Shown here one piece after another: positions 45,856 through 63,965 of a DNA stretch of 64,000 nucleotides. Under the pieces are notes generated by a model, which saw nothing but the letters and a program-made list of their open reading frames with translations, did no database searches and was not told the origin of the DNA. The stretch's first letter is position 1, and every line of letters starts with the position of its first letter. Source of the DNA: Thermococcus thioreducens (GTDB lineage: Archaea > Methanobacteriota_B > Thermococci > Thermococcales > Thermococcaceae); NCBI RefSeq assembly GCF_002214545.1, contig NZ_CP015105.1:1922001-1986000 (forward strand). Reading direction: 5' to 3'. A program made the translations under genes and the position numbers.

Positions 45856-46526
45856 ACCCGCTCGGGATAACGCTCACCCTAATTATTTTCTACCTGTTCT
45901 CGGAGCTCCACTCCAGAAGGAGGGCCTTCTACACCAACCCGGTTCTCCTGTCCATAATCACGATAGCGGCGGTTCTCAAGGGATTCGGAATCCCCTACGA
46001 GAGCTACATGGACAGTGCAGTTATACTCAAGTTCCTGCTCGGGCCGGCGGTGGTGAGCCTGGCCGTCCCGGTCTACAAGGGCAGAGAAACCATAAAGACC
46101 TACGCAGGGGAGATAGCGCTCGGAATAGCCGCCGGAGGGACGGTCGCAATCCTGAGCGCGTTCTACATCGCCAGACTCCTTGGCGGGAGCGAGGAGGTTC
46201 TCCTGAGCATAGCCCCCAAGAGCGTTACCACCGCCATAGCGATCGGCATAAGCGAAAAGATAGGCGGCATTCCAGCCTTGACCGCGGTTCTCGTGATACT
46301 CACCGGGCTCCTCGGCAACGCCTTCGCACCTGAGCTGCTGGGCCTCATCAGGGTCAGGGACAGAATAGCGAGGGGCCTCGCAACTGGGGTCAGCTCCCAC
46401 GGCCTCGGAACCGCAAGGATAATCCTGGAGGACGAACTCGCCGGGGCTGTCAGCGGTCTGGCCATGGCCCTGAACGGGGTATTCACTTCCCTACTGCTTC
46501 CCCACCTCATCGAACTCCTCAAGTAG
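45852..46526 (+). CDS. LrgB-family membrane protein
   Basis: A 224-residue protein with six or seven helices and the LrgB signatures YNPV-type FYTNPVLLSI, LKFLLGPAVVSLAVPVY, SIAPKSVTTAIAI and SSHGLGTARI. It is coupled to the CidA/LrgA gene by a four-base overlap. Its 3' end overlaps the convergent Tfx-type regulator by 36 bases. Confidence 0.92.
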   Translation: MNPLGITLTLIIFYLFSELHSRRRAFYTNPVLLSIITIAAVLKGFGIPYESYMDSAVILKFLLGPAVVSLAVPVYKGRETIKTYAGEIALGIAAGGTVAILSAFYIARLLGGSEEVLLSIAPKSVTTAIAIGISEKIGGIPALTAVLVILTGLLGNAFAPELLGLIRVRDRIARGLATGVSSHGLGTARIILEDELAGAVSGLAMALNGVFTSLLLPHLIELLK

Positions 46527-46931
46527 GCACTCGCTTATCCTGAGCCTGTCCCGGGCGTCAAGGAAGAGCGTGAAGTCCCTCTTGGCTATTCGATCCTCTA
46601 TGGGCGCGTGCTCCACGAGAAAGGCTATTATCTCCGCCGTGCTGTAGGGGACCTTGATCTTCAGCTCGTCGGCCTTCTTGAACAGCCTCTCGGGAACTGA
46701 GAATATGTCCTCCCCCTTCCGCACCTCAACGCTTATCTTCGAGTTTATCTGCTCCCATATGAGGAGAGTGTTCCTGGCCTTCTCGACCTTTTCAAGGGCC
46801 CGTCTCTCAAGGATGCTTATGTTGGCCCTGCTCGTGCCGAGAAGCTCCGCTATCTCGCTCTGCTTCAGCCCCTTAGCCCGAAGACGGAGGATCCTAATCT
46901 GCTGCTCGGTGAGGAAGCTCTTCGAGGGCAT
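46491..46931 (-). CDS. Tfx-family transcriptional regulator
   Basis: A 146-residue protein with an N-terminal helix-turn-helix, FLTEQQIRILRLRAKGLKQSEIAELLGTS, continuing ISILERRALEKV (written in separate parts), and a C-terminal domain typical of Tfx proteins. The founding member in Methanothermobacter binds downstream of the fmdECB promoter; target genes here are unknown, with the LrgAB-like pair a positional candidate. ATG 46931 is the likely start. Confidence 0.8.
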   Translation of the reverse strand: MPSKSFLTEQQIRILRLRAKGLKQSEIAELLGTSRANISILERRALEKVEKARNTLLIWEQINSKISVEVRKGEDIFSVPERLFKKADELKIKVPYSTAEIIAFLVEHAPIEDRIAKRDFTLFLDARDRLRISECLLEEFDEVGKQ

Positions 46932-47089
46932 TTTAAACACCAAAGTTTAACACGGTGCTGAAGATTAAAAAGTTTTTCTCAAAATGCCGGCCAGAACGCT
47001 GAAGCGCCCGGGAGGCGCGCAGGAGGTAGAGCTCCAACGAAGAGGAACCCACAGGTTCAAAGCTCTCAGAAAAGTCCGCAGAATTCTGG
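46932..47089. other. Non-coding gap before the integrated element
   Basis: I see no gene in this stretch. It holds the Tfx promoter on the minus strand and chromosomal flank of the tRNA-Tyr att site. Open frames here are short and lack ribosome binding sites. Confidence 0.4.
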
Positions 47090-47134
47090 TGGTCCCGCGG
47101 CCCGGATTTGAACCGGGGACCTGCGGATCTACAG
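47090..47134 (-). other. att site: 3' half of a tRNA-Tyr (GUA) gene
   Basis: Read on the minus strand this is CTGTAGA (anticodon loop, anticodon GTA), stem TCCGC, variable AGGTC, T arm CCCGGTTCAAATCCGGG, acceptor strand CCGCGGG, discriminator A and CCA. The five bases before the loop are ACTCC..., which cannot pair with TCCGC, so the 5' half is absent and homology stops at the anticodon loop. That is the expected core of an SSV-type integration; the intact gene should be at the far end of the element. Confidence 0.85.
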
Positions 47135-47962
47135 GGGAGTAAAACGCTAAACGAACTGTGGGCACGCTATAAAGGCGAGTTTGAGGAATGGCTCTCAATC
47201 TCAAGAAAAGTGAGCGAAAAAACAAGGAAAGACTACATGAAAGCGCTCAGTTACTTCTTTGTCCGCTACACCATAAAGACGGGCCCGGACATAAAGAAAT
47301 TCTTGGATAAGGAGGGCAACAAGAGGAACATAGCAAATGGTCTGAGGGTCTTTTTGACATTCCTTGCGGAGAGAGATTACCTCGACTATGACATTGCAAT
47401 GATAATCAAAAAGCGCTTCATCAAGGCGAGGCAGGTTGGCGTTAAGAGGATTTATATCACGGATCAGGAGCTCAAAGAGGCTTATGAGGAGGTCAAAAAG
47501 CGTGGGTTCAAAAAGCAGCTACTCTTTGAGCTCTTGGTTTTCACGGGACTGAGGCTCACACACGTGGTCGAGCTCATGAACACCTACGAGCCCGATAATC
47601 TTTACATCGTGAATGACAAAATTGCCCGCTATCCTCTCATGATTGTTGATAGGGGCAACAAGAAGGCGTATTGGGCTTACATGCCTCTTGAGCTGGCAAA
47701 GAAGCTCACGAGGATGAAAGTCAACTATAAGAGTGCTCAAGACTGGCCGCAGTATAAGAAAGTCTCCGCAGCCACGATAAGGAAGTGGTTCACGACTTTT
47801 CTCGCAAGACGGGGTGTGAGTGCTGAGGTCATCGACTTCATTCAAGGCCGTGCTCCTCGCTCCGTGCTCGAAAGGCATTATCTCAATCTAACTGTTCTTG
47901 CAGACGAGGCGTATTCTCGGGTGGTTGATGAGTTGAAGAAGGTGCTGGAGGGTGAGCTATGA
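47108..47962 (+). CDS. SSV-type integrase, C-terminal fragment (int-C)
   Basis: A tyrosine recombinase of 284 residues as read from TTG 47108. Its first nine residues are translated from the tRNA att sequence, in frame, as in partitioned archaeal integrases where attP lies inside int. Catalytic candidates are R149 (FTGLRLTHVV), R225 (ATIRKW), R248 (QGRAP) and nucleophile Y258 (RHYLNL). The N-terminal fragment should remain at the other end. In the circular form the two halves would be one gene. The 3' end overlaps the next small gene (ATGA). Confidence 0.88.
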   Translation: MNRGPADLQGSKTLNELWARYKGEFEEWLSISRKVSEKTRKDYMKALSYFFVRYTIKTGPDIKKFLDKEGNKRNIANGLRVFLTFLAERDYLDYDIAMIIKKRFIKARQVGVKRIYITDQELKEAYEEVKKRGFKKQLLFELLVFTGLRLTHVVELMNTYEPDNLYIVNDKIARYPLMIVDRGNKKAYWAYMPLELAKKLTRMKVNYKSAQDWPQYKKVSAATIRKWFTTFLARRGVSAEVIDFIQGRAPRSVLERHYLNLTVLADEAYSRVVDELKKVLEGEL

Positions 47963-48048
47963 GCAGGGTGGAGAAGGCTATCGCGGGCCTTGATTTTGTC
48001 CTGATGCTCGCCCTCTTTGTTTTTATGATAATGCTGTTTGGGAGGTGA
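47959..48048 (+). CDS. 29-residue membrane peptide
   Basis: ATG 47959 overlaps the int-C stop. The product has a short charged start (MSRVEKAIAG) and a single hydrophobic helix (LDFVLMLALFVFMIMLF). Its stop lies within the ribosome binding site of the next gene, so it is tightly packed. Function unknown; tiny membrane proteins are common in this element. Confidence 0.5.
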   Translation: MSRVEKAIAGLDFVLMLALFVFMIMLFGR

Positions 48049-48052
48049 GAGG

Positions 48053-48262
48053 GTGGAGAGGGTGAAGATTGTCTCGATTCGGGCGATTGCGAGGAAGAAC
48101 AACCTGAACCTTGTCACGGTCTGGAAAAAGTTTGACTGGTACGCGTCGATATACGGCGATGACCCTAACTATGTTATCCGTGGCCCTGATGGAAGAAGAT
48201 ACCCAACTGAGCGCTTTGTTGAGTTTTTGGAGCGCGTATTGGGGCGGAAAATCGCCCTCTAA
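48053..48262 (+). CDS. Small HTH-like protein, candidate excisionase
   Basis: A 69-residue basic protein. IRAIARKNNLNLVTVWKKF resembles a helix-turn-helix, and the region GPDGRRYPTERFVEFLER resembles the wing and helix of MerR/excisionase-type proteins. It lies two genes after int. GTG 48053 follows GGAGGTGA at 48041-48048. A role in excision is inference from position and size. Confidence 0.6.
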   Translation: MERVKIVSIRAIARKNNLNLVTVWKKFDWYASIYGDDPNYVIRGPDGRRYPTERFVEFLERVLGRKIAL

Positions 48263-48269
48263 ACCTTTC

Positions 48270-48295
48270 TTTTGCAAACGGTGTTATATTAAGTC
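48270..48295 (+). promoter_or_regulatory. Element promoter A (shared motif)
   Basis: A 26-base block containing AAACGGTGTTATATTAA is identical at 24 positions to the block at 62085-62110. The TTATATTA part is the TATA box; the conserved AAACGGTG before it could be a BRE or an operator. It drives the LamG gene and probably the following genes. Confidence 0.7.
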
Positions 48296-48367
48296 CCTGG
48301 TGCGTAATGACTCATTAGGGAACCGCGTTAGCTCAAATCAGTTCTCTCAACTCAGGTTCATGGTGGA

Positions 48368-48431
48368 GGGCTGAGCCGGCAGGGCGGGCACGCCCGCGGC
48401 GATGAGGCCCGGCTGAAAACCTCCGCGGAGG
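48368..48431 (+). promoter_or_regulatory. Structured leader before the LamG gene
   Basis: Between promoter and start codon are about 150 untranslated bases. GGGC (48368) can pair with GCCC (48407), flanking UGA/GAUGA, which looks like a box C/D-type kink turn, then GCCG with CGGC and GGGCG with CGCCC around the loop GGCA. Next, the palindrome CCTCCGCGGAGG (48420-48431) contains the ribosome binding site GGAGG, which could be hidden in a hairpin. The function is inferred. Confidence 0.45.
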
Positions 48432-48440
48432 GATGTGGAT

Positions 48441-50216
48441 GTGATCCGGAAGAAAGCACTCGGCGTTTTGGTAGTGGCTCTTTTCCTCGCCAGCATAGCG
48501 GGAGCGGCGAGCGCTGCAACTCTGGATTTGCCGAAGTGGGTCATCGTGCCTGAGGACAGCACTTTCAGCGACGTGACGTTGTTCTGCGGGCTGGACGCGT
48601 ATGATGCAAGCACGAACACGACGCCATGTTTTTTGAGAGGCAATGCTACATCTGCGAGTATCGTGAATGCTTTAGGCGCCACGTTGGTGGTGGGTAGGAT
48701 AGGAAACGCAATTGAACTCACAGGGACATCAGCAACCGCATCGGCGCTAACATCTCCGACAATTGACGTGGCGATTTCTGAAACATACACAAGCTCGATA
48801 TCCTTCGCAGTCTGGTTGAAGATTCTCGATAGAACTGACCTGAGATCCATAATGCAGTTGAAAACTGCGAATGGAGTGGTGAAGATTTATTGGCCTGCTG
48901 GAAGTGAATTTTCAATAGGGTACACTGACGTCGCAAGGAATTGGAGGAGTATACCTGTTCAATCGCAAATCGACGATGGAAATTGGCATTTCATTGTTGT
49001 GAATTTTATCATGGATGGTGTCAGAAACACGACGAGGATACAGGTATATATTGATGCAAGTGTTGCACTTGATGTTGAGAAAATAGGTGTGCCAGTCAAC
49101 GACTTTACAGTTTTTGAGTTATTCCAGAACAACAACGTTGGCAGAGTCGTCTATGATGAGGTGCGAGTGAAAATCGACGGAGTATTTACCCAAGACGAAA
49201 TCAAGCTCCTCTACCTCGCCGGTCGCAAGAAGCTCTCCGAGCCCGCGAACTTCCGCCAGATTTTCAGCCCGCTCATAGACCTCACTCGCGATCGTGCGAC
49301 CTTCTATGCTGGCCTGGAGGTCAGCACGAGCAACCCCTCGGGCTACGTGCCCGTGCCGGAAAGCGCCGTGAACATGAGCATCACCAGCGCCCCACGCCTG
49401 AAGTCCGACTACACCAATGCAGACTTCTACTACCAGGGGCACTACTGGTATCAGGCGCAGAAAATCCAGTTCAACCTGCCGATCCAGTTCGAGACCGTCC
49501 GCGAGCAAGGCGGCTTCTCGAAGGAAATCCTTCTCGACGAGGACAAGAAGACGTTCGTCTATGAAAAAGAGTTCAAGGTCACGAACCCCACCGCCGCCCG
49601 CCTGAACGTCATCTATTCTGTCGACCCCACCGCGCTCGGCTTCTCCGTGCTCCAGTTCCCGCAGTTCGAGCTGGACGGCATCAACATGGTCAGCTGGCAG
49701 CCGCAGAACTCGACATCATTGTATCTCATCCGCACGGACACGCTTGAGCCCGGCGAAATCAGCATGCACTGGATCAAGAGCATCTGGACAATCTCAAAAG
49801 AAGAGCTGGAGTTCCCGGCGAAGCTGGAAGACTTCCGCAACATCCTCGACTGGCAGACAGCGCAGAAGCTCGCCGAGAACGCCGCAAAGGGCAAGAGCGA
49901 CACGTACGTGAGGGTCATCAAGATTGACAGCAACGCCGACGTGAGCAATGTCACTGTTCTCGTCCCGCTCAAGGACGTCGAGGACGAGAGCGACGTGGTT
50001 GAAGCCGTCGCCCTGACCGGCTCAAGAGAAACATTGCAGGTCGAGAAGCTCGAAGACGGCAAGATAGTCGTCAAGGTGCCCGCTGATGCATTCGTAAGCG
50101 GGCATGCGGAGATCAAAGTATTCTACAACAAGGAAACGTCCTGGTGGAAGTCGATTCTCGACAAGATCCGCTCGCTCATGGCGAAGATCAAGGCGATGTT
50201 TTTCGGGGGTGGCTGA
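48441..50216 (+). CDS. Exported LamG/concanavalin-A-like domain protein
   Basis: About 591 residues. A signal peptide (LGVVALFLASIAGAASA-like, residues 5-26) is followed by a LamG-type jelly roll, about 30-265, with the hallmark DDGNWHFIVVNF and a C-terminal DEVRVKIDGVFTQDEI. A second beta domain follows (about 270-480), then a threonine/valine-rich segment, and an amphipathic end (WWKSILDKIRSLMAKIKAMFF). GTG 48441 is preferred over GTG 48435 for spacing to GGAGG. LamG proteins are known from Pyrococcus virus PAV1, where they may be surface or attachment proteins. Confidence 0.82.
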   Translation: MIRKKALGVLVVALFLASIAGAASAATLDLPKWVIVPEDSTFSDVTLFCGLDAYDASTNTTPCFLRGNATSASIVNALGATLVVGRIGNAIELTGTSATASALTSPTIDVAISETYTSSISFAVWLKILDRTDLRSIMQLKTANGVVKIYWPAGSEFSIGYTDVARNWRSIPVQSQIDDGNWHFIVVNFIMDGVRNTTRIQVYIDASVALDVEKIGVPVNDFTVFELFQNNNVGRVVYDEVRVKIDGVFTQDEIKLLYLAGRKKLSEPANFRQIFSPLIDLTRDRATFYAGLEVSTSNPSGYVPVPESAVNMSITSAPRLKSDYTNADFYYQGHYWYQAQKIQFNLPIQFETVREQGGFSKEILLDEDKKTFVYEKEFKVTNPTAARLNVIYSVDPTALGFSVLQFPQFELDGINMVSWQPQNSTSLYLIRTDTLEPGEISMHWIKSIWTISKEELEFPAKLEDFRNILDWQTAQKLAENAAKGKSDTYVRVIKIDSNADVSNVTVLVPLKDVEDESDVVEAVALTGSRETLQVEKLEDGKIVVKVPADAFVSGHAEIKVFYNKETSWWKSILDKIRSLMAKIKAMFFGGG

Positions 50217-50267
50217 CTTGGTTGTTTGCGCCACCGTAAAAACTCACGCGCATGAGGTGATTGAGAA

Positions 50268-51599
50268 ATGAGGTGGAAAAAGCCCCTTGGGCTGTTTGTA
50301 GCCCTGGTTTTGGTCTTTTCCGTCTTTGCCGTAGTGAGGGCAGCGACCATTACCAACGTGACGTGGGAGAATGCCATCACCGATCCAGGAATTGAGCTGA
50401 TAGCCGGAACAAACGCCACCCTCAACGTTACAATACTAACCAGCTCCGGAGACCCATTTGCCCTTAGCAGCTACACGAACGCCGACCTGCTTGAGGTAAC
50501 AGCGAAGTTCGTCGATGAGTATGGAAACGCTTTGGACATGAATGGTGACAACAACGCCGACATCTACACCCTCACCAACACCAGCACTCCGGGCCTATGG
50601 ACGGGAACAATCTCAATTGGCAATGTTACTCCTGGAGAGTACACCCTCAAAATCGAAGCCCTCGCCAAGAACAGCACTACCAATACAATAGTAGATAACG
50701 CCACCATGGAGCTTTCCGTCTGGATTGCCGGTGGGCCCTATTGGGTCAGCGTGGCTGATGTCAAGGATGGCGATACTATCGAAATCGGAAACCTGCAGTT
50801 TACCATAAGAGGGCTCTCCGAGCTTGGCGCAATACTCGACCTTGGAAACCTGACTACACAAACAATAACTGACTCTGACAGGGATGGTTTCTTCACTTGG
50901 CAGTATGATGTTACAAATGATGGGGCTAATGACTGGATAGTCTTCACAAAGAGCAATGATGACAGTGATAGGTACATCTTGATGATCTATTCAAGCGATG
51001 CGAACCTCCTTGACAGCTTCAATCTGACTGGTGATTTCGAAGTAAGGAGCTCTGACGGAAGAATCACGTTCAGAAACAAGGTTTTCAAGAACTACAACAC
51101 GTACAAGGCTTATGTTGTTTGGGACGAGTCATGGTTGGCAAAGCTTGGAATCAAAGCAGTTGACTATTACATCATTCCACTGAGAGGAAGAGAGCACTGG
51201 AGAGAGGGTATGGGAAACGTTGAAAGAACAGATATCAAAGTGATTAAGAGAACCACATACGCGTGGGGTCTTTTTGGTAGTGAAGAGGAAGTCTACAGTG
51301 GTAACATCTTCAACAAGAAAGTAAACGTCGACAATGTTCTCACTGTATTTGGAAAGTGGGTCGGAAATTGGGCGTACTTTGCAAGAGGGCTATGGGAGAT
51401 CAGGACTGGCCTTGGTGACATTACAATTCCAAACACATACAGCTTGAGAGAAAGAAACCTGAACGAGCTTAGCGTTTCAAGTGAAGACTTCAGAGGATTC
51501 AATCCAGTCTTACAACCAGAAGGAAGAGGGTTCTTCAAGCCAAACCTCGATTGGGCTAACCTCCTCGGCCTTGAAGACGAGGAGTCCAGCAGCTCTTAA
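50268..51599 (+). CDS. Exported beta-sandwich protein, paralogue 1
   Basis: A 443-residue exported protein with signal peptide (LFVALVLVFSVFAVVRA). Domain 1 (about 25-155) is Ig-like and carries GNALDMNGDNNADIYT and STPGLWTGTISIGNV. Domain 2 contains DSDRDGFFTW and TNDGANDW, which look like calcium-binding loops. A C-terminal region holds LAKLGIKAVDYYIIP. It aligns along its whole length with the protein at 62196-63518. The middle part of the gene is more AT-rich than its surroundings. ATG 50268 has a GAGGTGA ribosome binding site. No database family recognised. Confidence 0.78.
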   Translation: MRWKKPLGLFVALVLVFSVFAVVRAATITNVTWENAITDPGIELIAGTNATLNVTILTSSGDPFALSSYTNADLLEVTAKFVDEYGNALDMNGDNNADIYTLTNTSTPGLWTGTISIGNVTPGEYTLKIEALAKNSTTNTIVDNATMELSVWIAGGPYWVSVADVKDGDTIEIGNLQFTIRGLSELGAILDLGNLTTQTITDSDRDGFFTWQYDVTNDGANDWIVFTKSNDDSDRYILMIYSSDANLLDSFNLTGDFEVRSSDGRITFRNKVFKNYNTYKAYVVWDESWLAKLGIKAVDYYIIPLRGREHWREGMGNVERTDIKVIKRTTYAWGLFGSEEEVYSGNIFNKKVNVDNVLTVFGKWVGNWAYFARGLWEIRTGLGDITIPNTYSLRERNLNELSVSSEDFRGFNPVLQPEGRGFFKPNLDWANLLGLEDEESSSS

Positions 51600-51612
51600 G
51601 GGGGCTGATTGA

Positions 51613-53187
51613 ATGAGGCCCCTTCCAGCGATTTCCATTATCTTCATTGCACTCTTTTCGACGCTCAGCGTTGCAGTAGCTGACAGTAGCCTTCCAGAGC
51701 TGAACGAGACCACGCAGGTTAAGTTTGATGTCCCTTCCCTCACTCTCTCCGACTACGTGAATAAAATCCTAATCAAGTTCAAGGAGTGGCGTTTCGACAG
51801 CACCGGGCTAACGAGGACGAATACAGGGATTTACGTCGACGAGAGGTTTTGGAATTGGGTCACGGGCTCGATTGAGGCCTCGGCCAACCTCACTGACATG
51901 GCCCTGGAATGGCTGAACACCTTCAAGCAGAAAGTCCAGAACGACGAACCCGTCCAGTGGATTATCATCACCTGGCTGAAGCCAAACGACCGGCTCAAGG
52001 AGGCCCTGGAAGCAGTTGGAGCGAAAGTGCTCTATATCGATGAAGGCATCAACGCGATAGCCATCGAGGCCCGCCCGAGCCTCATCAAGAACCTCGTCTA
52101 TTCCAAGGCCTTCGACTTTGACTACCGCTTCTACATCCGCGAGGTCTGGCCGAACCTCTACGTCGCCAACAGTCCAGCGACGGTCGAGAACGTCAACGCG
52201 GCCTTCCTCCAGGGCAACATCACTCCCGAGCAGGTCGCAAACGCGAATTGGAACATCAAACTGATAAAAGCGGATTTGGCCTGGAGCAAGAAGGGCATTA
52301 CCGGAAAGGGCGTCACAATAGCGGTCGTCGACACGGGCGTGGATTGCAACCACGTCATGCTCCAGGGCGCCTGTGTCGGCGTGGCCAACTTCGTGAGCAA
52401 CGAACCGAGCGACGATTTGAACGGTCATGGAACCCACGTCGCTTCCATTGCCGCCGGACGGCCAGTCAAGGCGAACGTGGACGGGAAAATCGTCTACGTG
52501 AGCGGTGTCGCTCCAGAAGCGAATGTTTTGGCAGTGAAAGTGCTCGGCAAGGACGGCGGAGGCACGATGACGCAGATTCTCCAGGGCCTTGACTACATCG
52601 TCGAGTGGCACAAGAAGCATCCTGACGAGCCCCTCGTGGTTTCAATGAGCCTCGGAAGCCCGTTCGGAAGTCCAAGAGACCCGATGGTCCAGAAGGTGGA
52701 GCAGCTCATTAGAGAGGAGCACATTCCGGTCGTCATCGCGGCTGGAAACGAGTTCGTCGTCATAGACAGTCCCGGCATCGCGACCGGTGCCATCACCGTC
52801 GCGGCTGTGGATAGAGACATGAAGGTGGCAGAGTTCTCAGGCAAAGGGCCCGGCCTGAACATCTACGACGTGAAGCCCGACATCAGCGCGCCCGGCGTTA
52901 AGATAGTTGCCGCCCGTGCGGGAACACCGAACCAGCTTATAGCGATGTCAGGAACCAGCATGGCCACCCCGCACGTCAGCGGTGTTGTCGCGCTGATTCT
53001 ACAGGAGCACGGCACGCTGACGCCAGAGACCGTCAAGATGATTCTCCAGAAGACTGCCTATCCGCTCGACGGTATCAACGCTTTGCCCACGTGGTCAGGA
53101 GCCGGCATAGTAGATGCCTACGCTGCCGTGACAGCACAGGTGCCGAAAGACAGCATTTGGGACTGGCTCGGGAGGCTGATGCCATGA
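51613..53187 (+). CDS. Exported subtilisin-like serine protease (S8)
   Basis: A 524-residue protease with a signal peptide (IIFIALFSTLSVAVA), a long propeptide (about 20-215) and a complete catalytic domain. The triad is D240 (VVDTGVD), H272 (GHGTHVASIAAG) and S449 (SGTSMATPHVSG), with oxyanion N379 (AAGNEF). The domain ends near 510 with a short amphipathic tail. It lies between an exported beta-sandwich protein and tiny membrane proteins; it may mature virion or surface proteins or cut the host S-layer. The start is ATG 51613 with a weak ribosome binding site. Confidence 0.93.
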   Translation: MRPLPAISIIFIALFSTLSVAVADSSLPELNETTQVKFDVPSLTLSDYVNKILIKFKEWRFDSTGLTRTNTGIYVDERFWNWVTGSIEASANLTDMALEWLNTFKQKVQNDEPVQWIIITWLKPNDRLKEALEAVGAKVLYIDEGINAIAIEARPSLIKNLVYSKAFDFDYRFYIREVWPNLYVANSPATVENVNAAFLQGNITPEQVANANWNIKLIKADLAWSKKGITGKGVTIAVVDTGVDCNHVMLQGACVGVANFVSNEPSDDLNGHGTHVASIAAGRPVKANVDGKIVYVSGVAPEANVLAVKVLGKDGGGTMTQILQGLDYIVEWHKKHPDEPLVVSMSLGSPFGSPRDPMVQKVEQLIREEHIPVVIAAGNEFVVIDSPGIATGAITVAAVDRDMKVAEFSGKGPGLNIYDVKPDISAPGVKIVAARAGTPNQLIAMSGTSMATPHVSGVVALILQEHGTLTPETVKMILQKTAYPLDGINALPTWSGAGIVDAYAAVTAQVPKDSIWDWLGRLMP

Positions 53188-53327
53188 AGAAGTTCATCAT
53201 CTTCCTGCTCCTTATCCTCCTCTTTACGCTGTTCCTCGTCGGCTTTCAGAAGTTCCTTGAGAACGTGAGCCTCGCAATAGCAATCGCTCTCGTGCTGAGA
53301 ATTGTTGATGAGTATGTAGAAGATTAG
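53184..53327 (+). CDS. 47-residue membrane protein
   Basis: ATG 53184 overlaps the protease stop (ATGA). The product has one or two hydrophobic helices (FIIFLLLILLFTLFLVGF, then VSLAIAIALVLRIV) and an acidic end, DEYVED. It is tightly coupled to the protease and could anchor or regulate it. Function unknown. Confidence 0.7.
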   Translation: MKKFIIFLLLILLFTLFLVGFQKFLENVSLAIAIALVLRIVDEYVED

Positions 53328-53340
53328 GAGGTGTTTGTCC

Positions 53341-53598
53341 GTGTGGGGACTTGAAGATAAGCCCCTTCCTCTCCGTCTTGGGATTGCGATCATCGCTGAC
53401 GTCATCGACGCTCTGAACTTCGTTCCAGGAGTCAGCGACATCATCGAGGCCCCACTGAATGCCTTTGTAGCGTATGCACTAACTGACAACGTAAAAGCCC
53501 TCGCGGTCGGCGCGGCCGACGGCATCCTTCCAGCGCCGATTGACTGGTTCCCGAGCGCCACGGTGATGGTGCTCGCAGATGAGTTTGGCTGGATCTGA
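53341..53598 (+). CDS. 85-residue hydrophobic protein
   Basis: GTG 53341 follows the ribosome binding site GGAGGTG. The product is mostly hydrophobic helices: LPLRLGIAIIADVIDALNFV, IIEAPLNAFVAYALTD and ALAVGAADGILPAPIDWF. The size and two-helix character resemble capsid proteins of spindle-shaped archaeal viruses, but no sequence match is claimed. It is followed by an oligo-T terminator-like block. Confidence 0.7.
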   Translation: MWGLEDKPLPLRLGIAIIADVIDALNFVPGVSDIIEAPLNAFVAYALTDNVKALAVGAADGILPAPIDWFPSATVMVLADEFGWI

Positions 53599-53599
53599 G

Positions 53600-53611
53600 C
53601 TTTCGTTTTTC
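53600..53611 (+). terminator. Terminator-like block, copy 1
   Basis: CTTTCGTTTTTC follows a stop codon by one base. The identical 12-mer recurs after the stop at 56876, supporting a shared termination signal. Confidence 0.5.
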
Positions 53612-53636
53612 CCCTTCCTGAGAGGTGGTGAGAAAA

Positions 53637-54023
53637 ATGTCAGGAATGCTCGCGATCATCTTCCTCGTATTCATCATCACGTTCGCGCTGGCTACAATGT
53701 GGTATTCCAGCGGTGAGGCAGCCTTCTTCATCACGCTCGGGATAGTGGGCCTCGTCTTCTTTTGGGACCTTTCCTCCAACGGCGGCCAGTTCCTTGCCAC
53801 GCCGATCATCATGATAGGGGATTGGCTCGGCATCAGGCTCTGGACAGCCCTCTTCATCTTCCTGACGACCCTTGGCGGCTATGTCTTCGGGAATTGGGGA
53901 AAAGCCATCGTCTTCCTCGTGCTCGTGCTCATCATCCTCTACGCCCTCGGCCTCCTCGGCCCAATAGCAAGCGGTGACCTTAGTGCGGTGAAAGAGGCCA
54001 TCCAGATCGGAGGTGGGAGCTGA
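53637..54023 (+). CDS. 128-residue polytopic membrane protein
   Basis: A protein with about four membrane helices, starting LAIIFLVFIITFALATMWY, a Trp-rich second helix and a long hydrophobic stretch VFLVLVLIILYALGLLGP, ending IQIGGGS. ATG 53637 has a GAGGTGG ribosome binding site. Its stop overlaps the start of the next gene. Some spacing and helix layout recall conjugation VirB2/VirB3-like small membrane proteins, but no match can be claimed. Confidence 0.7.
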   Translation: MSGMLAIIFLVFIITFALATMWYSSGEAAFFITLGIVGLVFFWDLSSNGGQFLATPIIMIGDWLGIRLWTALFIFLTTLGGYVFGNWGKAIVFLVLVLIILYALGLLGPIASGDLSAVKEAIQIGGGS

Positions 54024-54730
54024 TGTACTCCACAGCCCTCGCCACAGCGAGCTACCAGGGCATCATGGTGAGCGCTCTCGCGGTAGCAGTGGCCCTCGGA
54101 GCATACTTCATGCTCTCCCACCGCGCGGACATCCTCGGCGCAACAGTCCTCGTCACCCTCACGGCATTCGTGGCAAAAGACTACTACCACATCGTCTACG
54201 TGGCAGGCACTTTTCTCGGTATTGCCCTGCTCATGCAGTTGACAGACTTCGACGAAGGGACATTCCGAGGGGCGATTTTCTACGCCGGAGTAGGGCTCTT
54301 CGCTGCGACAATCCTTTACTACCTCGCCCCCAATACAATCCGAATGAACATAGACTACTCCTTCATCCTCGTCCTTGCAATTGCTGCCTTCTTCGTGCTC
54401 ATCGAGGGGCTGAGAACTGGCTTCGAGTACGACAGCGAGGCCCTGCTGGCAATCCTCGGGGCCCTGGCAATTGTCTTCATTGTGTACAGCATCGCAGGAG
54501 CCCACCACGCCACGTGGGGCCTCGGCCTCATGGCGTTCGGCGTGCTCATGAAACTCATCCTCGGCGGGTTCATCTCCGTCACGAGCTTTGTAGCAGGGTT
54601 CATGATATGGCTGGACGACGTGACCGGCCACGCTCTTTACGGTGGAAGCAGTGAGCAGAGTTCAACACTCTTCCTCGCTGTGGGAGCCCTCCTGATACTT
54701 GTATACGCGTACCTGCAATGGAGGGATTGA
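54023..54730 (+). CDS. 235-residue polytopic membrane protein
   Basis: A membrane protein with about seven hydrophobic helices and few charged loops. It begins MYSTALATASYQGIMVSAL and ends LILVYAYLQWRD. It overlaps the preceding gene (TGATG). No family recognised; the order of genes suggests it belongs to a membrane assembly with the neighbouring small proteins and the ATPase. Confidence 0.72.
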   Translation: MYSTALATASYQGIMVSALAVAVALGAYFMLSHRADILGATVLVTLTAFVAKDYYHIVYVAGTFLGIALLMQLTDFDEGTFRGAIFYAGVGLFAATILYYLAPNTIRMNIDYSFILVLAIAAFFVLIEGLRTGFEYDSEALLAILGALAIVFIVYSIAGAHHATWGLGLMAFGVLMKLILGGFISVTSFVAGFMIWLDDVTGHALYGGSSEQSSTLFLAVGALLILVYAYLQWRD

Positions 54731-54732
54731 AA

Positions 54733-55389
54733 ATGGGAAAGAAAGCACTCGCACTTGTAGTTTTGATTCTCGTCCTCGCGGCCGGGCCGGTCGGCGCCTG
54801 GTCGCTGAAAGACCTCCTCAAGGGCACGGCCAGCCACGCCCTCGACCTCTTCAAGCGCGAAGTCATGCCAGTTGACGGCTACAAAGCACTCAAAGTCGGC
54901 GAGGGGTTCTGGATCGAAGGCGAACACTTCTGGAACCCGGACTACTACGTCCAGCTCAACGAGAGCAAACTCTACTGGAGCTACCTCGTGCCAACCGACG
55001 TGGACGTGAAAGTACAGGTTTGGAAAGTCTACTTCGGCCTATTCGCCTTTCCGGTCGAGAACAGCAAATATAACGACATCTGGTGGAAGAAGGCGCCAGT
55101 TGGTGACGGCTGGATTGGAGCCTTCTTCGTGTGGGACTTCAGCTGGAGGCCTGGTCATGGCTGGAGGCCCGCAAAGAAAGCGTACATCGCCTACAACCTG
55201 CCGAGCGCGCAGGACCTCAATGTGCAAAACGTCACAATCCTCCAGAACGGCTCGGTCAGGATTCTCTTCGACGACAACAGCACGAGAATACTGAGCTTTG
55301 AGGATTTTGAGGGCTTTGGGAATGTTACCGTGGAGAACGTGACGTTTCGGCATGTTGTGGGCTCGCTCTATCTGGTCAGGAGGGGGTGA
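54733..55389 (+). CDS. 218-residue secreted protein
   Basis: A protein with a signal peptide (ALALVVLILVLAAGPVGAW) and a Trp/Tyr-rich soluble domain (EGEHFWNPDYYVQLNESKLY, FFVWDFSWRPGHGWRPAKKA). It has several N-glycosylation sequons and no further membrane helix, so it is probably released or bound to other surface components. ATG 54733 follows GGAGGG. No family recognised. Confidence 0.75.
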   Translation: MGKKALALVVLILVLAAGPVGAWSLKDLLKGTASHALDLFKREVMPVDGYKALKVGEGFWIEGEHFWNPDYYVQLNESKLYWSYLVPTDVDVKVQVWKVYFGLFAFPVENSKYNDIWWKKAPVGDGWIGAFFVWDFSWRPGHGWRPAKKAYIAYNLPSAQDLNVQNVTILQNGSVRILFDDNSTRILSFEDFEGFGNVTVENVTFRHVVGSLYLVRRG

Positions 55390-55393
55390 AAGA

Positions 55394-55522
55394 ATGTTTG
55401 GACTGGAGTTCCTGAACCTGAGCCCGGAGATGGCCTTTGGGGTTGGAGTGCTCTTCGGCCTGCTCCTGGCGTGGGGAATCTACGAGGACCTTGTAGCAGA
55501 CAGGAGGGGCGTGCATGGTTGA
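55394..55522 (+). CDS. 42-residue membrane peptide
   Basis: A short gene, not obvious from length alone, with ATG 55394 just after GGGGGTGA and a stop overlapping the next gene's start region. The product has one helix (AFGVGVLFGLLLAWGIY) and a charged end, DLVADRRGVHG. The tight packing between neighbours supports it. Confidence 0.6.
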   Translation: MFGLEFLNLSPEMAFGVGVLFGLLLAWGIYEDLVADRRGVHG

Positions 55523-55835
55523 CCTCAAGACAGGAGCAATCCTCGCGGCAGTGTACCTCGTTCCATTCCTCATCCTGATGCCGCCGGACAGCACAAACTC
55601 TCCGGGTGCAGTGTTCCTGTGGTTCCTCTATCCAGTAGTCGCGGGAATCCTGCTCCTCGTGACTGCCATCGTCGCATGGAAGGTCTTCGACATAGACTTC
55701 CTTCCATGGGGCCTCGCCCTCATCGTCGGCGCTCCACTGCTCACGATGCTCCTCAGCCCAATCTTCAGCCTCATGTGGGGCTTCTACATTGTCCCGACCA
55801 TGGTCGTCTTCCTCGTAGGTGCCACGCAGGGGTGA
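55515..55835 (+). CDS. 106-residue membrane protein
   Basis: A protein with three or four membrane helices (GAILAAVYLVPFLILMPP, GAVFLWFLYPVVAGILLLV, LALIVGAPLLTMLLSPIF). It overlaps the 42-residue gene by eight bases and has the ribosome binding site AGGAGGGG. Function unknown. Confidence 0.72.
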   Translation: MVDLKTGAILAAVYLVPFLILMPPDSTNSPGAVFLWFLYPVVAGILLLVTAIVAWKVFDIDFLPWGLALIVGAPLLTMLLSPIFSLMWGFYIVPTMVVFLVGATQG

Positions 55836-55840
55836 GGAGG

Positions 55841-55981
55841 ATGGTCAGCCGGAAAGTGTACCTCAAACGGAAGCGGGAGATACTGCACAGAGTGCTCACG
55901 AACATCCAGAAAGAGCTCGCGCGGGTGAACCGCGAGCTGAAACAGCTTGAGAGAGGTGATGAGCGTGGAACCCGCTCCTGA
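55841..55981 (+). CDS. 46-residue basic coiled-coil peptide
   Basis: A charged helical peptide (VYLKRKREILHRVLTNIQKE, then ARVNRELKQLERG) with GGTGAGGAGG five bases upstream of ATG 55841. It overlaps the start of the next gene. Probably a cytoplasmic partner of the membrane proteins around it. Confidence 0.6.
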   Translation: MVSRKVYLKRKREILHRVLTNIQKELARVNRELKQLERGDERGTRS

Positions 55982-56876
55982 ACCTGAGATTCGCGAGGAT
56001 ATCCGCGCCGAGCTCGCGGCAAAGGTCGAGAATAAGAACGAGAACAGGCAGAGGTTCTGGAGGTTGGCCATCACCTTCATCGGCAGCCTGCTCGGCTTCG
56101 GCCTCGTGGCCTACGCCGCGCCAGGATTCTACGACACCCTGCTCTCCATTCACGAGAGCCTCGCCACGCCCCGCTACAGCTTCTACGTCCTGGTGGGCTC
56201 GATTGCCTTCGTCGAGTTCATGAGGATGACATGGGTCGAGTCAGCCAAGGCCAGGAGCAAGAGGCTCATCCCTCTGACCTCGCCAGAGACGGAGATTTGG
56301 GTCAAGGAGAAGCCGCTCATTGGGCTCAAGCTTCCGTTCACGAACCGCGAGATCAAGAACAAGAGGATAAAGCCCCACATCGTCGAGACGGAGTTAGGTT
56401 GGAGAGTCTATCCAAACAGGTCCCTCCTCTCGCCGCAGTGGAACGGCGAGATATACTTCATCCCCTACGATTCCATCCACGGCTACGGCAACACGAGGAT
56501 CATCAGCGCCAGGAAGCCAAGCCAACCGACCTACTACGAGACCGATCCAATCACAGGCGAGGCAATTCCCGTCTACGTGTGGGAGCCGATCGACCTCGGT
56601 GAGGAGAAATACATGAGAGCGCAGAAGGAAATCGCCTACCTCCAGGCAGAGAACCGCATCCTCCAGGAGTACGCCGCCAGGGGCTACGAGCTGGCCAAGA
56701 CAATCAGCCAGATCCCGCAGGAGTTCTTCGAGGAGCTCTCCAACAGAGGCTTCGAGAAGGCAAAGCAGATCCTCGACATCATGGGCAAGGGCTTCTTCAG
56801 CGAGGTCGGGAAGATCAAGAAGGAGGAAATCTCCGCGATTTTGGAGGCAATCAAGAAAGACCGCGAGGCCTGGTGA
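55965..56876 (+). CDS. 303-residue membrane protein with cytoplasmic domain
   Basis: A protein with two N-terminal membrane helices (about 30-55 and 78-95) and a long hydrophilic remainder containing VKEKPLIGLKLPFTNREIKN and a C-terminal helical region from about 215 (AQKEIAYLQAENRILQEYAA). The start is GTG 55965 or ATG 55959; the former is better spaced from GAGGTG. It may be the membrane platform that contacts the ATPase encoded at 57610. No family recognised. Confidence 0.72.
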   Translation: MEPAPEPEIREDIRAELAAKVENKNENRQRFWRLAITFIGSLLGFGLVAYAAPGFYDTLLSIHESLATPRYSFYVLVGSIAFVEFMRMTWVESAKARSKRLIPLTSPETEIWVKEKPLIGLKLPFTNREIKNKRIKPHIVETELGWRVYPNRSLLSPQWNGEIYFIPYDSIHGYGNTRIISARKPSQPTYYETDPITGEAIPVYVWEPIDLGEEKYMRAQKEIAYLQAENRILQEYAARGYELAKTISQIPQEFFEELSNRGFEKAKQILDIMGKGFFSEVGKIKKEEISAILEAIKKDREAW

Positions 56877-56878
56877 TC

Positions 56879-56890
56879 CTTTCGTTTTTC
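56879..56890 (+). terminator. Terminator-like block, copy 2
   Basis: CTTTCGTTTTTC three bases after the stop codon, identical to 53600-53611. Confidence 0.5.
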
Positions 56891-56904
56891 AATTTCGCCC
56901 ATAA

Positions 56905-57012
56905 GGGGGATCGAGCCGCGAGTAGGGGTTCCGAAAGCGGTTCGTCCCCGTGGAGCCGGCCCGTGTGGGCCGAAAAAGGCCGCGAGGTGATCAAGTCAAG
57001 ACGTGACTTGAT
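56905..57012 (+). ncRNA. Structured intergenic region (candidate RNA, operator or origin)
   Basis: A gap of 191 bases is full of dyads. GGGG..CCCC with inner CGAA/UUCG spans 56924-56948; CGGCCC-GTGT-GGGCCG spans about 56957-56972; ATCAAGTCA-AGACG-TGACTTGAT is a perfect 9+9 inverted repeat at 56990-57012; the octamer GCCGCGAG occurs twice (about 56914 and 56979). It could be a structured 5' leader, a small RNA, the operator of the downstream winged-helix gene or a replication origin. No TATA box is convincing. Confidence 0.5.
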
Positions 57013-57067
57013 GGCTTGAAGGACGCGTATCGGGAAAATCACACATTCCGAAACAGGAGGTGGAAAG

Positions 57068-57613
57068 GTGGCGAACGGGTTAGCTTTGGGTAGATTTGAA
57101 TATATTTCGCGTTTGAAGGCCGAAGCGGCCGAGGATGGCGAAGCCAAGTATCTCGACCTTGCCCTTTCTCTCATGGAAAAAGCGGCGCAGCTCGAGGAGG
57201 AGATGGAAAAGGTCCCCGGCATCTACAAGGAGAAAAAGCTCGAAATTGCACTTTCAGCGATAGAGCAGTACAAGCAGGCGAACGAGCTCCTCATCAAGGC
57301 GATTCTTGTCGGCGAGAGCGCCGAGATGGCGCTGAGGAAGCTCGAAAGAATGCTGAGCGCGAGGGCAACGCTGAGGACGAAAATCATCGCGGCCCTCTAC
57401 GGCGAGACTGAGCCGGTCGGCCCCTCTGAGCTCGCCGAGAGGTTTGGCATTTCAACGCAGGCCGTCCACCAGGCTTTGCAAGAGCTCGACAAGCTCAAAG
57501 TCGTGGAGAAAGACGAAAAAGGCCGGTACTCCCTCCGGCCCGGCGTGATGGACGAGGTGTTTCGGCTTCTCTGGCAGAGCGTGGCTGAGCTGAAAGCGAG
57601 GGGAGCGATATGA
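57068..57613 (+). CDS. Winged-helix DNA-binding protein with helical N-terminal domain
   Basis: A 181-residue protein. Residues 1-110 are helical and charged (EEEMEKVPGIYKEKKLEIAL). Residues 115-175 form a MarR/IclR-like winged helix with PSELAERFGISTQAVHQALQ and a wing KVVEKDEKGRYSL. GTG 57068 follows GGAGGTGG. It overlaps the ATPase gene and sits downstream of a perfect 9+9 inverted repeat that could be its operator. Confidence 0.8.
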   Translation: MANGLALGRFEYISRLKAEAAEDGEAKYLDLALSLMEKAAQLEEEMEKVPGIYKEKKLEIALSAIEQYKQANELLIKAILVGESAEMALRKLERMLSARATLRTKIIAALYGETEPVGPSELAERFGISTQAVHQALQELDKLKVVEKDEKGRYSLRPGVMDEVFRLLWQSVAELKARGAI

Positions 57614-58863
57614 TGTCTGCTTATCTCGACCGCTTCGTCGTCCAGCCCAAAGAATTCCAGATCGACCAGCCACGGACCCACGCCGTGGGCCTCACCCGCG
57701 GGAAAAACTTCGTCTATGTCTCTGCCGACATGGTACACCGGTATATTTCTGGACAGACCAACGCGGGAAAAACAACCCTCGCGCAGACTCTCATGGAGGT
57801 GGACTTCCTCCGCGGACGGAAAATCGTCGAGATAGAACCTGCGCTAGAGGCTAAAAACGAGAGGGCATTCATGAACCTGCCGAACGATGACGACGGCATG
57901 CTTGAGGTTCTCAACAAATACTTCCACCTTGAGCCGAGGCCCTTCAAGGCCATCGTGTACTCGCCAGCGACGCGGAAGTACCGTGCTTTCATGAAGAACG
58001 ATGAGGGAATCCGCTCAAAGTTCTACAAGTCGCTCAAGATCACCGAGCCCGACGTGGTGGACCTCATCCTTGCGATTTTTCCAGGTGGGTCCATCGAGAG
58101 ACTCATCATCAACAAGGCATACAAGAAATACACCGAAGAGATCAGACCAAAGAGGAAAGAGCGCTCTATATCCGAGTTCCTGGAGGTCTTTGAGGAAGTT
58201 GGAAAAGAGGCAAACTTCAGCAGTTTCACCCTCCTCAAGCTCGAGTATATAGCAAGCGTTCTTCACAGCGACGGCAAGCACAAGATAGATGAGATTCTCA
58301 AAAAGAAAGACGAGATAAGCGTCTTCACATTCACATTCATCAGAGATCCCCTCGAAAGGTACCTGTGGGCCATGGCCATTCTCAACATTATCTATGACAG
58401 GTGGGAGTACCTCAAGCGGAAAGAAGATATTCTGAGCTTCTATGTAGCAGATGCTCATCTATTAGCCCCAAAGAAGAAGAAAGACATGATCGACACACTC
58501 GCAAGATACCAGGAACGCATGAAGCAGAACTTACAGGTCTACTCGAGAATCTCGCGAGGAAAAGGACTATTGTGGACATTTGATAGTCAGGAATTTGACG
58601 ACCTGGATGACGTTGTAGTGGCACAGTGTCAGGAGCGCTTCATCAAGCGCATGAGGAACCGCGACGTCGCCGAGAAGCTGAAGATTGACTACACAGAACT
58701 GAGACGCCTGGACAAGAAGTTCGCCTTCTTCGATGACGGCTATATGGTGAAGAAAATCCTCGTCAGGCCACCCATGTCGAGAAAAGCCCGCTCCGGAGAA
58801 TTCCTCCCGATTCATTTCGTCAAGGAGTACAAAAGGTGGGAGAATGAGGAGGCGAATTATTAG
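57610..58863 (+). CDS. HerA/FtsK-like P-loop ATPase
   Basis: A 417-residue ATPase. Walker A is GQTNAGKTT (K54), followed by VDFLRGRKIVEIEP as in HerA/FtsK/VirB4-type enzymes. The Walker B region is LSFYVADAHLL near 278, with Asp then Ala-His instead of the usual Glu. A sensor-like LWTFDSQEFDDL follows. It may pump DNA into particles or power a membrane assembly. It overlaps its neighbours on both sides. Confidence 0.78.
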   Translation: MMSAYLDRFVVQPKEFQIDQPRTHAVGLTRGKNFVYVSADMVHRYISGQTNAGKTTLAQTLMEVDFLRGRKIVEIEPALEAKNERAFMNLPNDDDGMLEVLNKYFHLEPRPFKAIVYSPATRKYRAFMKNDEGIRSKFYKSLKITEPDVVDLILAIFPGGSIERLIINKAYKKYTEEIRPKRKERSISEFLEVFEEVGKEANFSSFTLLKLEYIASVLHSDGKHKIDEILKKKDEISVFTFTFIRDPLERYLWAMAILNIIYDRWEYLKRKEDILSFYVADAHLLAPKKKKDMIDTLARYQERMKQNLQVYSRISRGKGLLWTFDSQEFDDLDDVVVAQCQERFIKRMRNRDVAEKLKIDYTELRRLDKKFAFFDDGYMVKKILVRPPMSRKARSGEFLPIHFVKEYKRWENEEANY

Positions 58864-60043
58864 CGTCTTACTCATTATATTATATATGAATATAGTGCTT
58901 CATACCTATGTAGCTGCATTTACATGGCAACGAGAGATCCACCTTGGCGAGCCAATTCTCGTGTATCACAACGATACCCTGCTCTACAACATCACCCTCG
59001 ACATCAACATCAACAGCGGGCAAGTATACGCAATCATCACAGAAGTGCCGTCCGGACGGCTCTTCCTGAAGAACATAGACTGGAATACAATCGAGCTCGG
59101 CAATACAAACATCACCATGACCTCTACATGGAAAAACCCGCAGAACCGCACCGCCAGGGTCATCATCACCGGGCCCGACACCTACACCGTGCTCCTCCAG
59201 AGCGAGCTGGCCCAAAACGAGACCGAGCAGGGGAACCTGACGGCTGCCAACGTCACGAACCAGACGAACCAGACCAACACCACCCCGGCGAACCTGACAG
59301 TGAACCTCACACCCATCAACCTCACTCCAGTCGTGGTTCCCCAAAACCTGACATGCGACAGCGTCCAGGAGTGTCAGCAGATAATCGACAACCTCACAGC
59401 GCAGCTCGAACAGCTGAAAGAAGAGCGCGACGAACTGGCCAAACAGCTCCAGTACCTCCAGCAACAGCTCAACATGACAATGACAGAAAACGAGCAGTTG
59501 AGAAAGCAGATAGAGATACTCCAACAGGCCCTCGAAGAGAGAAACAAGAGAATCCGAGAGCTTGAAGAGGAAATCGAACGACTGAAGGCCGAACAGTGGT
59601 CATGGGAGACGGCAAGAGAAAAGGCCGAAGAGCAATACATCCTCTGGACGCCCTATCTCTTCCCAATAGTCCTCGCGAGCCTCACGATCTACTACAGACG
59701 CTACAAGAGAATCAAGAAATACGCAGACGTCCAGATCGACCTCAAGGCGAAAGAACTGAAAGAAGAGCTCCTAAGCGAGTACCTCAAGAAGGACCTGCTG
59801 AGGGCAAAGATCGAAACAATAGTTGACGACCCGAACCTGCTCGTGATTCTGAGAACCATCATCCCGCAGATAACCGGCTCGACAGAAATCACAAAGGGCG
59901 ACATCCTTCAGCTCGACATCGACCAGGTCGCCAAGCTCGCGAGGAAGCGCTTCTTACTGAAAGAAAACAGAGTTGAATACCTCAAGAAGAAACTGCTTGA
60001 GCTGAAGGAAAGAATCAAAGAGGAGGCTGGCAAAGATGTTTGA
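58844..60043 (+). CDS. Membrane protein with ectodomain, coiled coil and cytoplasmic tail
   Basis: A 399-residue protein with an N-terminal signal (VLLIILYMNIVLHTYVAA), a beta-rich ectodomain (about 25-120), an Asn/Thr-rich linker (TNQTNQTNTTPANLTVNLTP), a long coiled coil (about 180-265), a membrane helix near 270-290 (FPIVLASLTIYY) and a basic cytoplasmic tail of about 110 residues. It overlaps the ATPase gene by 20 bases. The layout suits a stalk bridging the surface layer. Confidence 0.75.
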   Translation: MRRRIISVLLIILYMNIVLHTYVAAFTWQREIHLGEPILVYHNDTLLYNITLDININSGQVYAIITEVPSGRLFLKNIDWNTIELGNTNITMTSTWKNPQNRTARVIITGPDTYTVLLQSELAQNETEQGNLTAANVTNQTNQTNTTPANLTVNLTPINLTPVVVPQNLTCDSVQECQQIIDNLTAQLEQLKEERDELAKQLQYLQQQLNMTMTENEQLRKQIEILQQALEERNKRIRELEEEIERLKAEQWSWETAREKAEEQYILWTPYLFPIVLASLTIYYRRYKRIKKYADVQIDLKAKELKEELLSEYLKKDLLRAKIETIVDDPNLLVILRTIIPQITGSTEITKGDILQLDIDQVAKLARKRFLLKENRVEYLKKKLLELKERIKEEAGKDV

Positions 60044-60323
60044 GAGCCTCTTTGCTATTTCCTTCGTCGGGGCAATTCTACTGTACATTGCAGACCTCTT
60101 CATCCGGCCATGGAAGTACTCACAGGACAGGATCAAAGAGCTTGAAAGGAGACTCAACATCGCGAGAGAAGGAGGGCTAAAGGCAAAACTCCTGGCCTGG
60201 CTGAACGCACCCAAACTCCGCGGAAACCTTCAGTTATATCAAAAGCTCCTCGAAGTCGAACTTGAAGCTGAGAAACGCAGATACGAGATATACTCTCTGC
60301 TGAGGAGGGGTGACCATGTTTGA
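60036..60323 (+). CDS. 95-residue membrane-anchored helical protein
   Basis: A protein with one N-terminal membrane helix (LFAISFVGAILLYIADLFI) and a charged helical tail (DRIKELERRLNIAREGG, LLEVELEAEKRRYEI). It overlaps the previous gene by eight bases and the next by eight. Function unknown. Confidence 0.7.
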   Translation: MFESLFAISFVGAILLYIADLFIRPWKYSQDRIKELERRLNIAREGGLKAKLLAWLNAPKLRGNLQLYQKLLEVELEAEKRRYEIYSLLRRGDHV

Positions 60324-60579
60324 GTGGTTCTTCATCATCTCCATCCTCTTGGGCGGCTGGCTGGTCTATGAAATTTTCCAGGATAAGATCCACGGCCCTG
60401 GAAGGTACTGGATCACCATCAACGTCGAGGGCGACGCTGACAGGGTCGAGTACCTCATCAGACAGCTGGCAAAGGACCAGAAAATCAAAATCAGGAGCTA
60501 CAAAGTCACGGCTGAAAAACCAACACTCAAAAAGAAAGCAAAAACACCCAAAGCCCTAAAAGGAATTCCAGAACTATAA
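60316..60579 (+). CDS. 87-residue membrane-anchored protein
   Basis: A protein with one N-terminal helix (FFIISILLGGWLVYEIF) and a small domain, YWITINVEGDADRVEYLI, that could fold as a ferredoxin-like sheet, then a Lys-rich end. ATG 60316 follows AGGAGGGGTGA. Function unknown. Confidence 0.7.
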   Translation: MFEWFFIISILLGGWLVYEIFQDKIHGPGRYWITINVEGDADRVEYLIRQLAKDQKIKIRSYKVTAEKPTLKKKAKTPKALKGIPEL

Positions 60580-60598
60580 TAAATTGATGGTGGTGCCC

Positions 60599-62008
60599 AT
60601 GAGGAAGATTGCCGCCTTTCTCATCTTTCTCCTTGCCGGCGCGATGGTGCCGGCCGGGATAGTGAAAGCCGAAGTGACGCCTGTAGCAACGTTTCAGGTC
60701 GTGGCTGGACAGCCCTGGACCAAAGAGATTCCAGGGGCCATCGTGAACTGGACAGGGGAATTCGACTGGAACGGCAAAGGGTGGGAAGCGACCTTCTCCG
60801 TGTACTTCACAGAAACCGGTTATCAGCACGGTGTTAGCGCAACAGAAAACGGCTTCGTGGACTCCGACGGAAAATACATCTGGATTATAACCAACCTTCA
60901 AACACAGGACAATCCCGAGACCAAAGAGCTCGGCCTCATGGAAAGCTGGCACGACCTCACAGTGAAATTCATCGATCCCCTGACAGGAAAAGTCATAATC
61001 GACAACGACTTCAACGGAGAAACATACACCCTGCGCGTTGGAGACAATATTGACGTTTCTGGAGAACTTCCAGACAGCAATGGTTATGAGAAGACCGTCC
61101 TCGAGCTCAAAGATATTAAAACCGGCCTTTTTGGGTCAAAAGCCGTGCTTGTGTTACATCATATCACCGCCGTGAGCGGGACGGTAGAGGTGTATCCAAA
61201 TCCTGGCTATCCTCCAGGAACAGAGCTCGGCCCCGGTTCAGAAAACCAGACGAACGAAGAGCCAAAAATCCCGCCCCTTAACCTCAGCACCCCAACAGCC
61301 ATGATCGTCGTGGGTGAGAATGCTGCAGGGACCGACGTGGCCGCGGGGGCAAAAGTCGGGATAGCCGTGCAGAAGTGGATAGACATCATCAAAGAAAAGA
61401 CTGGAGATGTCGTTATCCCCGGCCTCGGCGGACTCGGAGCAAAACTGGCAACACTCCCATCAAAGAACCTAAATGCGGATGCAATGCTTGACACAGAAGT
61501 CTCTGATCCAGGGAAAATAGGGATGATAGTTTACAGCGTAGGAGGGCCAGCAGCGAACCAGTATTCTGCAATGCTCAACAACAGGACTGATCTTCCAGTG
61601 CGCTTTGTCAAGGAGAACGACAGGTGGTACCTCGTGAGCAAATACGGCGACAGATGGAGCGGAAGCTACGGAGTCATTATGATCATTCCCGCAATAAGAA
61701 ACGTTGATGAGTTCAAAGAAAGCCTCATGAAAGGCAACATCAAAATCGCAGACGTGCTCGTTGCGGGGCTTGACAGGTGGGGGACTTACGCTGCTTGCGA
61801 TCTCCTAAAGGGTGAATTCCTGAAACCCGTGAAGGGCATTCAGCCGGATAAAGACCTTATGAGCATTGTGCAGCTCCAAGCGCAAGTTCTGGCAATGTTT
61901 GCGGACCCATTCAGCATCTTTGAGATAGGATTTGACCCAACGAAAGTGCCAATAACTGCTATTATAGTGGACAAGGACGAGAGAATAGTGAAAGTATTCG
62001 TCGGCTAA
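60599..62008 (+). CDS. Exported protein with S-layer-like domain
   Basis: A 469-residue protein with a signal peptide (AAFLIFLLAGAMVPAGIVKA), an N-terminal beta domain (about 25-210), a Pro/Asn-rich linker and a C-terminal half with TAMIVVGENAAGTDVAAGAK (near 232), VGGPAANQYSAML (near 310) and VAGLDRWGTYAACDLL (near 390). Those three motifs recall the archaeal S-layer protein family of methanogens and Thermococcales. It could join the virus or element to the host surface. ATG 60599 follows GGTGGTG. Confidence 0.75.
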   Translation: MRKIAAFLIFLLAGAMVPAGIVKAEVTPVATFQVVAGQPWTKEIPGAIVNWTGEFDWNGKGWEATFSVYFTETGYQHGVSATENGFVDSDGKYIWIITNLQTQDNPETKELGLMESWHDLTVKFIDPLTGKVIIDNDFNGETYTLRVGDNIDVSGELPDSNGYEKTVLELKDIKTGLFGSKAVLVLHHITAVSGTVEVYPNPGYPPGTELGPGSENQTNEEPKIPPLNLSTPTAMIVVGENAAGTDVAAGAKVGIAVQKWIDIIKEKTGDVVIPGLGGLGAKLATLPSKNLNADAMLDTEVSDPGKIGMIVYSVGGPAANQYSAMLNNRTDLPVRFVKENDRWYLVSKYGDRWSGSYGVIMIIPAIRNVDEFKESLMKGNIKIADVLVAGLDRWGTYAACDLLKGEFLKPVKGIQPDKDLMSIVQLQAQVLAMFADPFSIFEIGFDPTKVPITAIIVDKDERIVKVFVG

Positions 62009-62009
62009 T

Positions 62010-62029
62010 TCTTCTTTTTTCCGTTTTTA
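62010..62029 (+). terminator. T-rich terminator after the S-layer-like gene
   Basis: TTCTTCTTTTTTCCGTTTTT begins directly after the stop codon and ends the unit started at 57068. Confidence 0.55.
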
Positions 62030-62084
62030 TCGCTTTATCGTGCTTCTTTTTGAGACAGTGTATTTAAAGCATCCTCCGGTCTTA

Positions 62085-63955: not shown

Positions 63956-63965
63956 GGTGGAAACC

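Follow-up and report, generated by a model that had tools for sequence, protein, structure and literature searches.

A split SSV-type integrase gene with a tRNA-Tyr half at the edge of a predicted integrated element of the pAMT11/TKV1 type in Thermococcus thioreducens

In the genome of Thermococcus thioreducens (2,065,932 bases, a single contig), the 3' half of a tRNA-Tyr gene is fused in frame to the C-terminal fragment of an SSV-type integrase gene. The fusion lies in the stretch of 64,000 nucleotides that we analysed (hereafter the window; genome positions 1922001-1986000). The locus is almost certainly the edge of an integrated pAMT11/TKV1-type plasmid with an SSV-type (type I, or 'suicidal') integrase that carries attP inside its own gene. 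This explanation is supported by a second copy of the core, a full tRNA-Tyr gene, an in-frame N-terminal half of the integrase gene, the PF16795 domain, conserved catalytic residues, a dN/dS of about 0.05, empty sites, homologues and published precedents.

The att core and the two halves of the integrase gene

The tRNA-Tyr 3' half is located at 47090-47134 of the window on the minus strand. The 45-bp match, which occurs once in the window (0 expected by chance), runs from the encoded CCA end (TGG on the plus strand) to the anticodon loop (anticodon GTA), and ARAGORN found no complete tRNA at 47090-47134. The initial annotation had described the tRNA homology in this way, with the 5' half absent, and had taken the 45 bases as the core; base-by-base comparison bore out the match, but the exact direct repeat proved longer, 55 bp, comprising the tRNA half and 10 bp of its 3' flank (47080-47134). 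Its partner, predicted to lie downstream, was recovered in a genome search for the core at 1998573-1998622, and the exact repeat was then extended to 1998568-1998622. The two copies are spaced 29,488 bp, the downstream one being beyond the window, and delimit an integrated element of that length from window position 47080 to genome position 1998567, with 47080-64000 (plus strand) inside the window. A complete tRNA-Tyr(GTA) gene, also predicted past position 64,000, contains the downstream copy (genome 1998578-1998655, minus strand; L010:13579-13656). As expected for a type I integrase, the att core overlies the 3' end of the tRNA gene, and the tRNA is left whole at the end of the element that carries the N-terminal half of the integrase gene.

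The C-terminal fragment (int-C) is an open frame at 47108-47962 on the plus strand that begins at TTG within the tRNA half; its coding sequence proper (47135-47962) encodes 275 amino acids with the PF16795 catalytic domain. The frame passes through the tRNA half without a stop, as had been claimed. This openness alone is weak evidence, because two of the three plus-strand frames are open there, and on that ground the tRNA half could be viewed as a chance match or a decayed pseudogene beside an integrase, with no role as an attachment site. The frame through the core is nevertheless significant, because the missing portion of the gene (int-N) accompanies the second copy and is in frame with int-C, and because nearly all relatives have an in-frame tRNA 3' half at this place. 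int-N, located at genome 1998362-1998622 on the plus strand (L010:13363-13623), comprises 87 codons and ends in the second core copy; its frame through the downstream core matches that of int-C on exit from the left copy. When the two halves were joined in silico, they gave 362 codons with no stop, with att inside the coding sequence as in other type I integrases. Both the int-N frame past 64,000 and a single int gene on rejoining had thus been correctly foreseen, the circle itself being predicted. Three observations argue against a pseudogene: the exact repetition of all 55 bp beside the in-frame remainder of the gene, the same arrangement with other tRNAs in relatives, and the empty sites in other genomes described below. 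The first and last of these leave that explanation with practically no chance of being right.

Another complete integrase in the element, which the initial annotation had named as evidence against its own reading, was not present: every other tyrosine- or serine-recombinase gene of the genome (PF16795, PF00589 and resolvase) maps outside the element. Outside the window, the same genome carries a further split integrase of the SSV type (C1:1025672-1033912; L088, L089). It belongs to an element of 8,190 bp whose direct repeat, of 51 bp, lies at a gene for tRNA-Val(TAC), and its int-C is located at genome 1033034-1033816 on the minus strand.

Relatives of the integrase and empty sites

int-C matched PF16795 (Phage_integr_3) with an E-value of 6.7e-56 (189 bits; cut-off 27). 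In a sequence search, its only relatives among solved structures were 3uxu, 3vcf and 4dks ('probable integrase'), which we take to be SSV1 integrase catalytic domains. The SSV1 integrase is alike in its split-gene strategy and catalytic-domain homology, but identity is about 28%, and SSV1 is a crenarchaeal virus with an unrelated body. Among named plasmids, int-C is closest to the contiguous integrases of the free plasmids pT26-2 and pGE2 (44-45% identity), whose reading frames likewise run through a tRNA half; the integrase described here, in contrast, sits on a pAMT11/TKV1-type body. Viral contigs, when searched for contiguous integrases, yielded only one distant relative. By these sequence comparisons, int-C is an SSV-type (PF16795) integrase closest to the pT26-2 group.

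An integrase homologue was present in 32 of the 61 genomes of the genus. Nearly every homologue locus that was read has the 3' half of a tRNA gene in frame at the corresponding position, and the tRNAs differ. The left host flanking gene, encoding an HTH protein (46491-46943, minus strand), adjoins an uninterrupted tRNA-Tyr gene in relatives and marks the empty site; DNA similarity searches matched it in 32 further genomes. In ten other Thermococcus genomes (L052, L053, L059, L062, L066, L069, L072, L073, L074 and L076), the same HTH gene on the left and the same gene on the right flank an uninterrupted tRNA-Tyr with an identical core; others show one flank.

Published work on the pT26-2 integrase group already covers the type I strategy, an overlap with the tRNA that reaches as far as the anticodon, the length of the core, preservation of the tRNA and the use of tRNA-Tyr as target (PMC6972569, PMC8371274). 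Our locus shares with that group attP in the gene, the tRNA 3'-half overlap to the anticodon loop, the regenerated tRNA, the int-N/int-C split and PF16795. Its core is 55 bp, compared with a mean of 58 bp in the group, and tRNA-Tyr is a listed target (TbaCH5_IP2) (PMC6972569, PMC8371274). The locus is a further example of the published 'suicidal integrase' arrangement, clean but ordinary, and adds a fully delimited tRNA-Tyr case on a pAMT11/TKV1-type element. Judging from studied relatives, strand exchange would take place at the anticodon loop, integration would keep the tRNA gene whole while disabling the integrase, and excision would need a complete related integrase in trans. The joined integrase is predicted to recombine at the tRNA-Tyr att site.

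The split integrase in the integrated state

The element might be permanently trapped, with a dead split integrase and int-C as a fossil. int-C has neither a start nor the promoter-proximal part of the gene, in-frame stops are present in some relatives' loci, and split integrases are probably inactive (PMC8371274). However, int-C of T. thioreducens is intact, and at least 90% of 29 sequences share its catalytic residues R140, K176, R216 and Y249. Compared with the 87%-identical integrase of the Thermococcus MAG contig L016, dN was 0.087 and dS 1.61, a dN/dS of about 0.05, which may nonetheless reflect selection in free phases. Moreover, excision of TKV4 by a related integrase in trans has been reported (PMC8371274). 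On balance, we consider permanent trapping plausible but the lesser probability.

The N-terminus of SSV integrases has a role in multimerisation (PMC8371274). An alignment of int-N halves from 18 family members centres on a basic strand and on a helix start rich in N and S, both typical of ribbon-helix-helix (RHH) proteins. The RHH antitoxin family CcdA was matched singly by 13 of the 18 (best E-value 3.9e-5) and BrnA by 8 of the 18, whereas the element's own int-N scored below the curated cut-off against RHH families. In the PDB, the int-N profile first matched two RHH proteins, NikR (E-value 0.04) and CopG (E-value 0.09). Reversed int-N sequences, used as a control, gave no CcdA, BrnA, NikR or CopG match. 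From these sub-threshold matches we propose, with moderate confidence, that the int-N halves of the family are RHH-like domains. The term ribbon-helix-helix is not used in PMC8371274, and we did not find this reading of int-N in the literature on the integrase group (PMC6972569, PMC8371274). The split would then fall between a dimerising RHH-like int-N domain and int-C, which comprises the core-binding and catalytic part, and the residues encoded by the tRNA would link the two. If true, this would offer a testable picture of integrase multimerisation and of why the split falls there. A more speculative proposal, which we consider unlikely, is that the int-N left by integration acts in the integrated state as a stand-alone RHH protein, its C-terminal residues read antisense through the tRNA; it might repress the integrase promoter, block re-integration at the same tRNA or assemble with int-C.

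The body of the element and exchange of the integrase

Most left-half genes of the element matched, gene by gene and in order, those of pAMT11, TKV1 (G012) and the elements in G036 and G017, in a syntenic block of LamG protein, secreted protein, subtilase, membrane proteins and ATPase. The block common to pAMT11/TKV1 elements spans 48435-62008 of the window. All its matched genes are on the plus strand, encoding a LamG protein (48435-50216), a subtilase (51613-53187), an HTH protein (57068-57613) and an ATPase-like protein (57610-58863), together with the body genes 50268-51599, 54023-54730, 54718-55389, 55947-56876, 58844-60043 and 60584-62008. The subtilase (PF00082, E-value 3.7e-54) showed 66-88% identity in all related elements and pAMT11.

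The element differs from the pAMT11 family in size (29.5 kb, compared with 18-20 kb), and most of its right-half genes have no match in that family or TKV1. pAMT11 itself has no such integrase, whereas TKV1 uses a different tRNA and has an integrase 51% identical to that of the element. Phage records gave no match to the element by DNA, nor to its LamG protein, ATPase or int-proximal regulator, and a viral origin was rejected.

The affinity of the integrase to those of pT26-2 and pGE2 might suggest that the element belongs to the pT26-2 plasmid family itself. BLASTP, however, detected only int, t26-20 and t26-28 of the pT26-2 core genes, with weak phmmer scores for t26-6 and t26-13, and most genes of the left half have their matches in pAMT11 and TKV1 instead. 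Membership of the pT26-2 family was rejected on these core genes and is very improbable. Judged by the syntenic block, the body is most probably that of the pAMT11/TKV1 family. Plasmid families are defined by replication proteins; right-half genes gave no match to pAMT11 at the Rep position and, among the genes scanned, no replication domain from Pfam.

The closest relatives of the integrase and of the pAMT11/TKV1-type body are found in different elements. The closest integrase, that of L016 (87% identical), shares both the tRNA-Tyr core and the host locus of our element, and the genes downstream of it match t26-2, t26-4 and t26-5 of pT26-2, a pT26-2-type body. The closest body is that in G036 (ATPase 94% identical), with an integrase only 43% identical and a tRNA-Arg(CCG) at the int-N end. 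Repeats of related integrated elements are 48 bp at tRNA-Val (TKV1), 40 bp at tRNA-Arg (G036) and 52 bp at tRNA-Gly (G017). A like integrase on a pT26-2 body and a like body with another integrase indicate that the integrase and att site move between plasmid families as one cassette. Such movement has already been proposed: the integrase group occurs in both the pT26-2 and pAMT11 families, and a compact module could favour exchange (PMC8371274). The element provides a clear two-way case of it.

For most genes in the right half of the element (L010:1724-13313), pAMT11, TKV1 and related elements contained no counterpart, nor was any replication protein identified. One gene (L010:11662-12444) encodes a DpdA-like protein (PF23859, E-value 9.8e-21; phrog 'queuine tRNA-ribosyltransferase'), which suggests 7-deazaguanine modification of the element DNA. 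At L010:4951-5816, a TumE-like toxin gene (PF20126, E-value 1.1e-6) directly follows a small gene of 118 amino acids, and the two possibly form a toxin-antitoxin pair.
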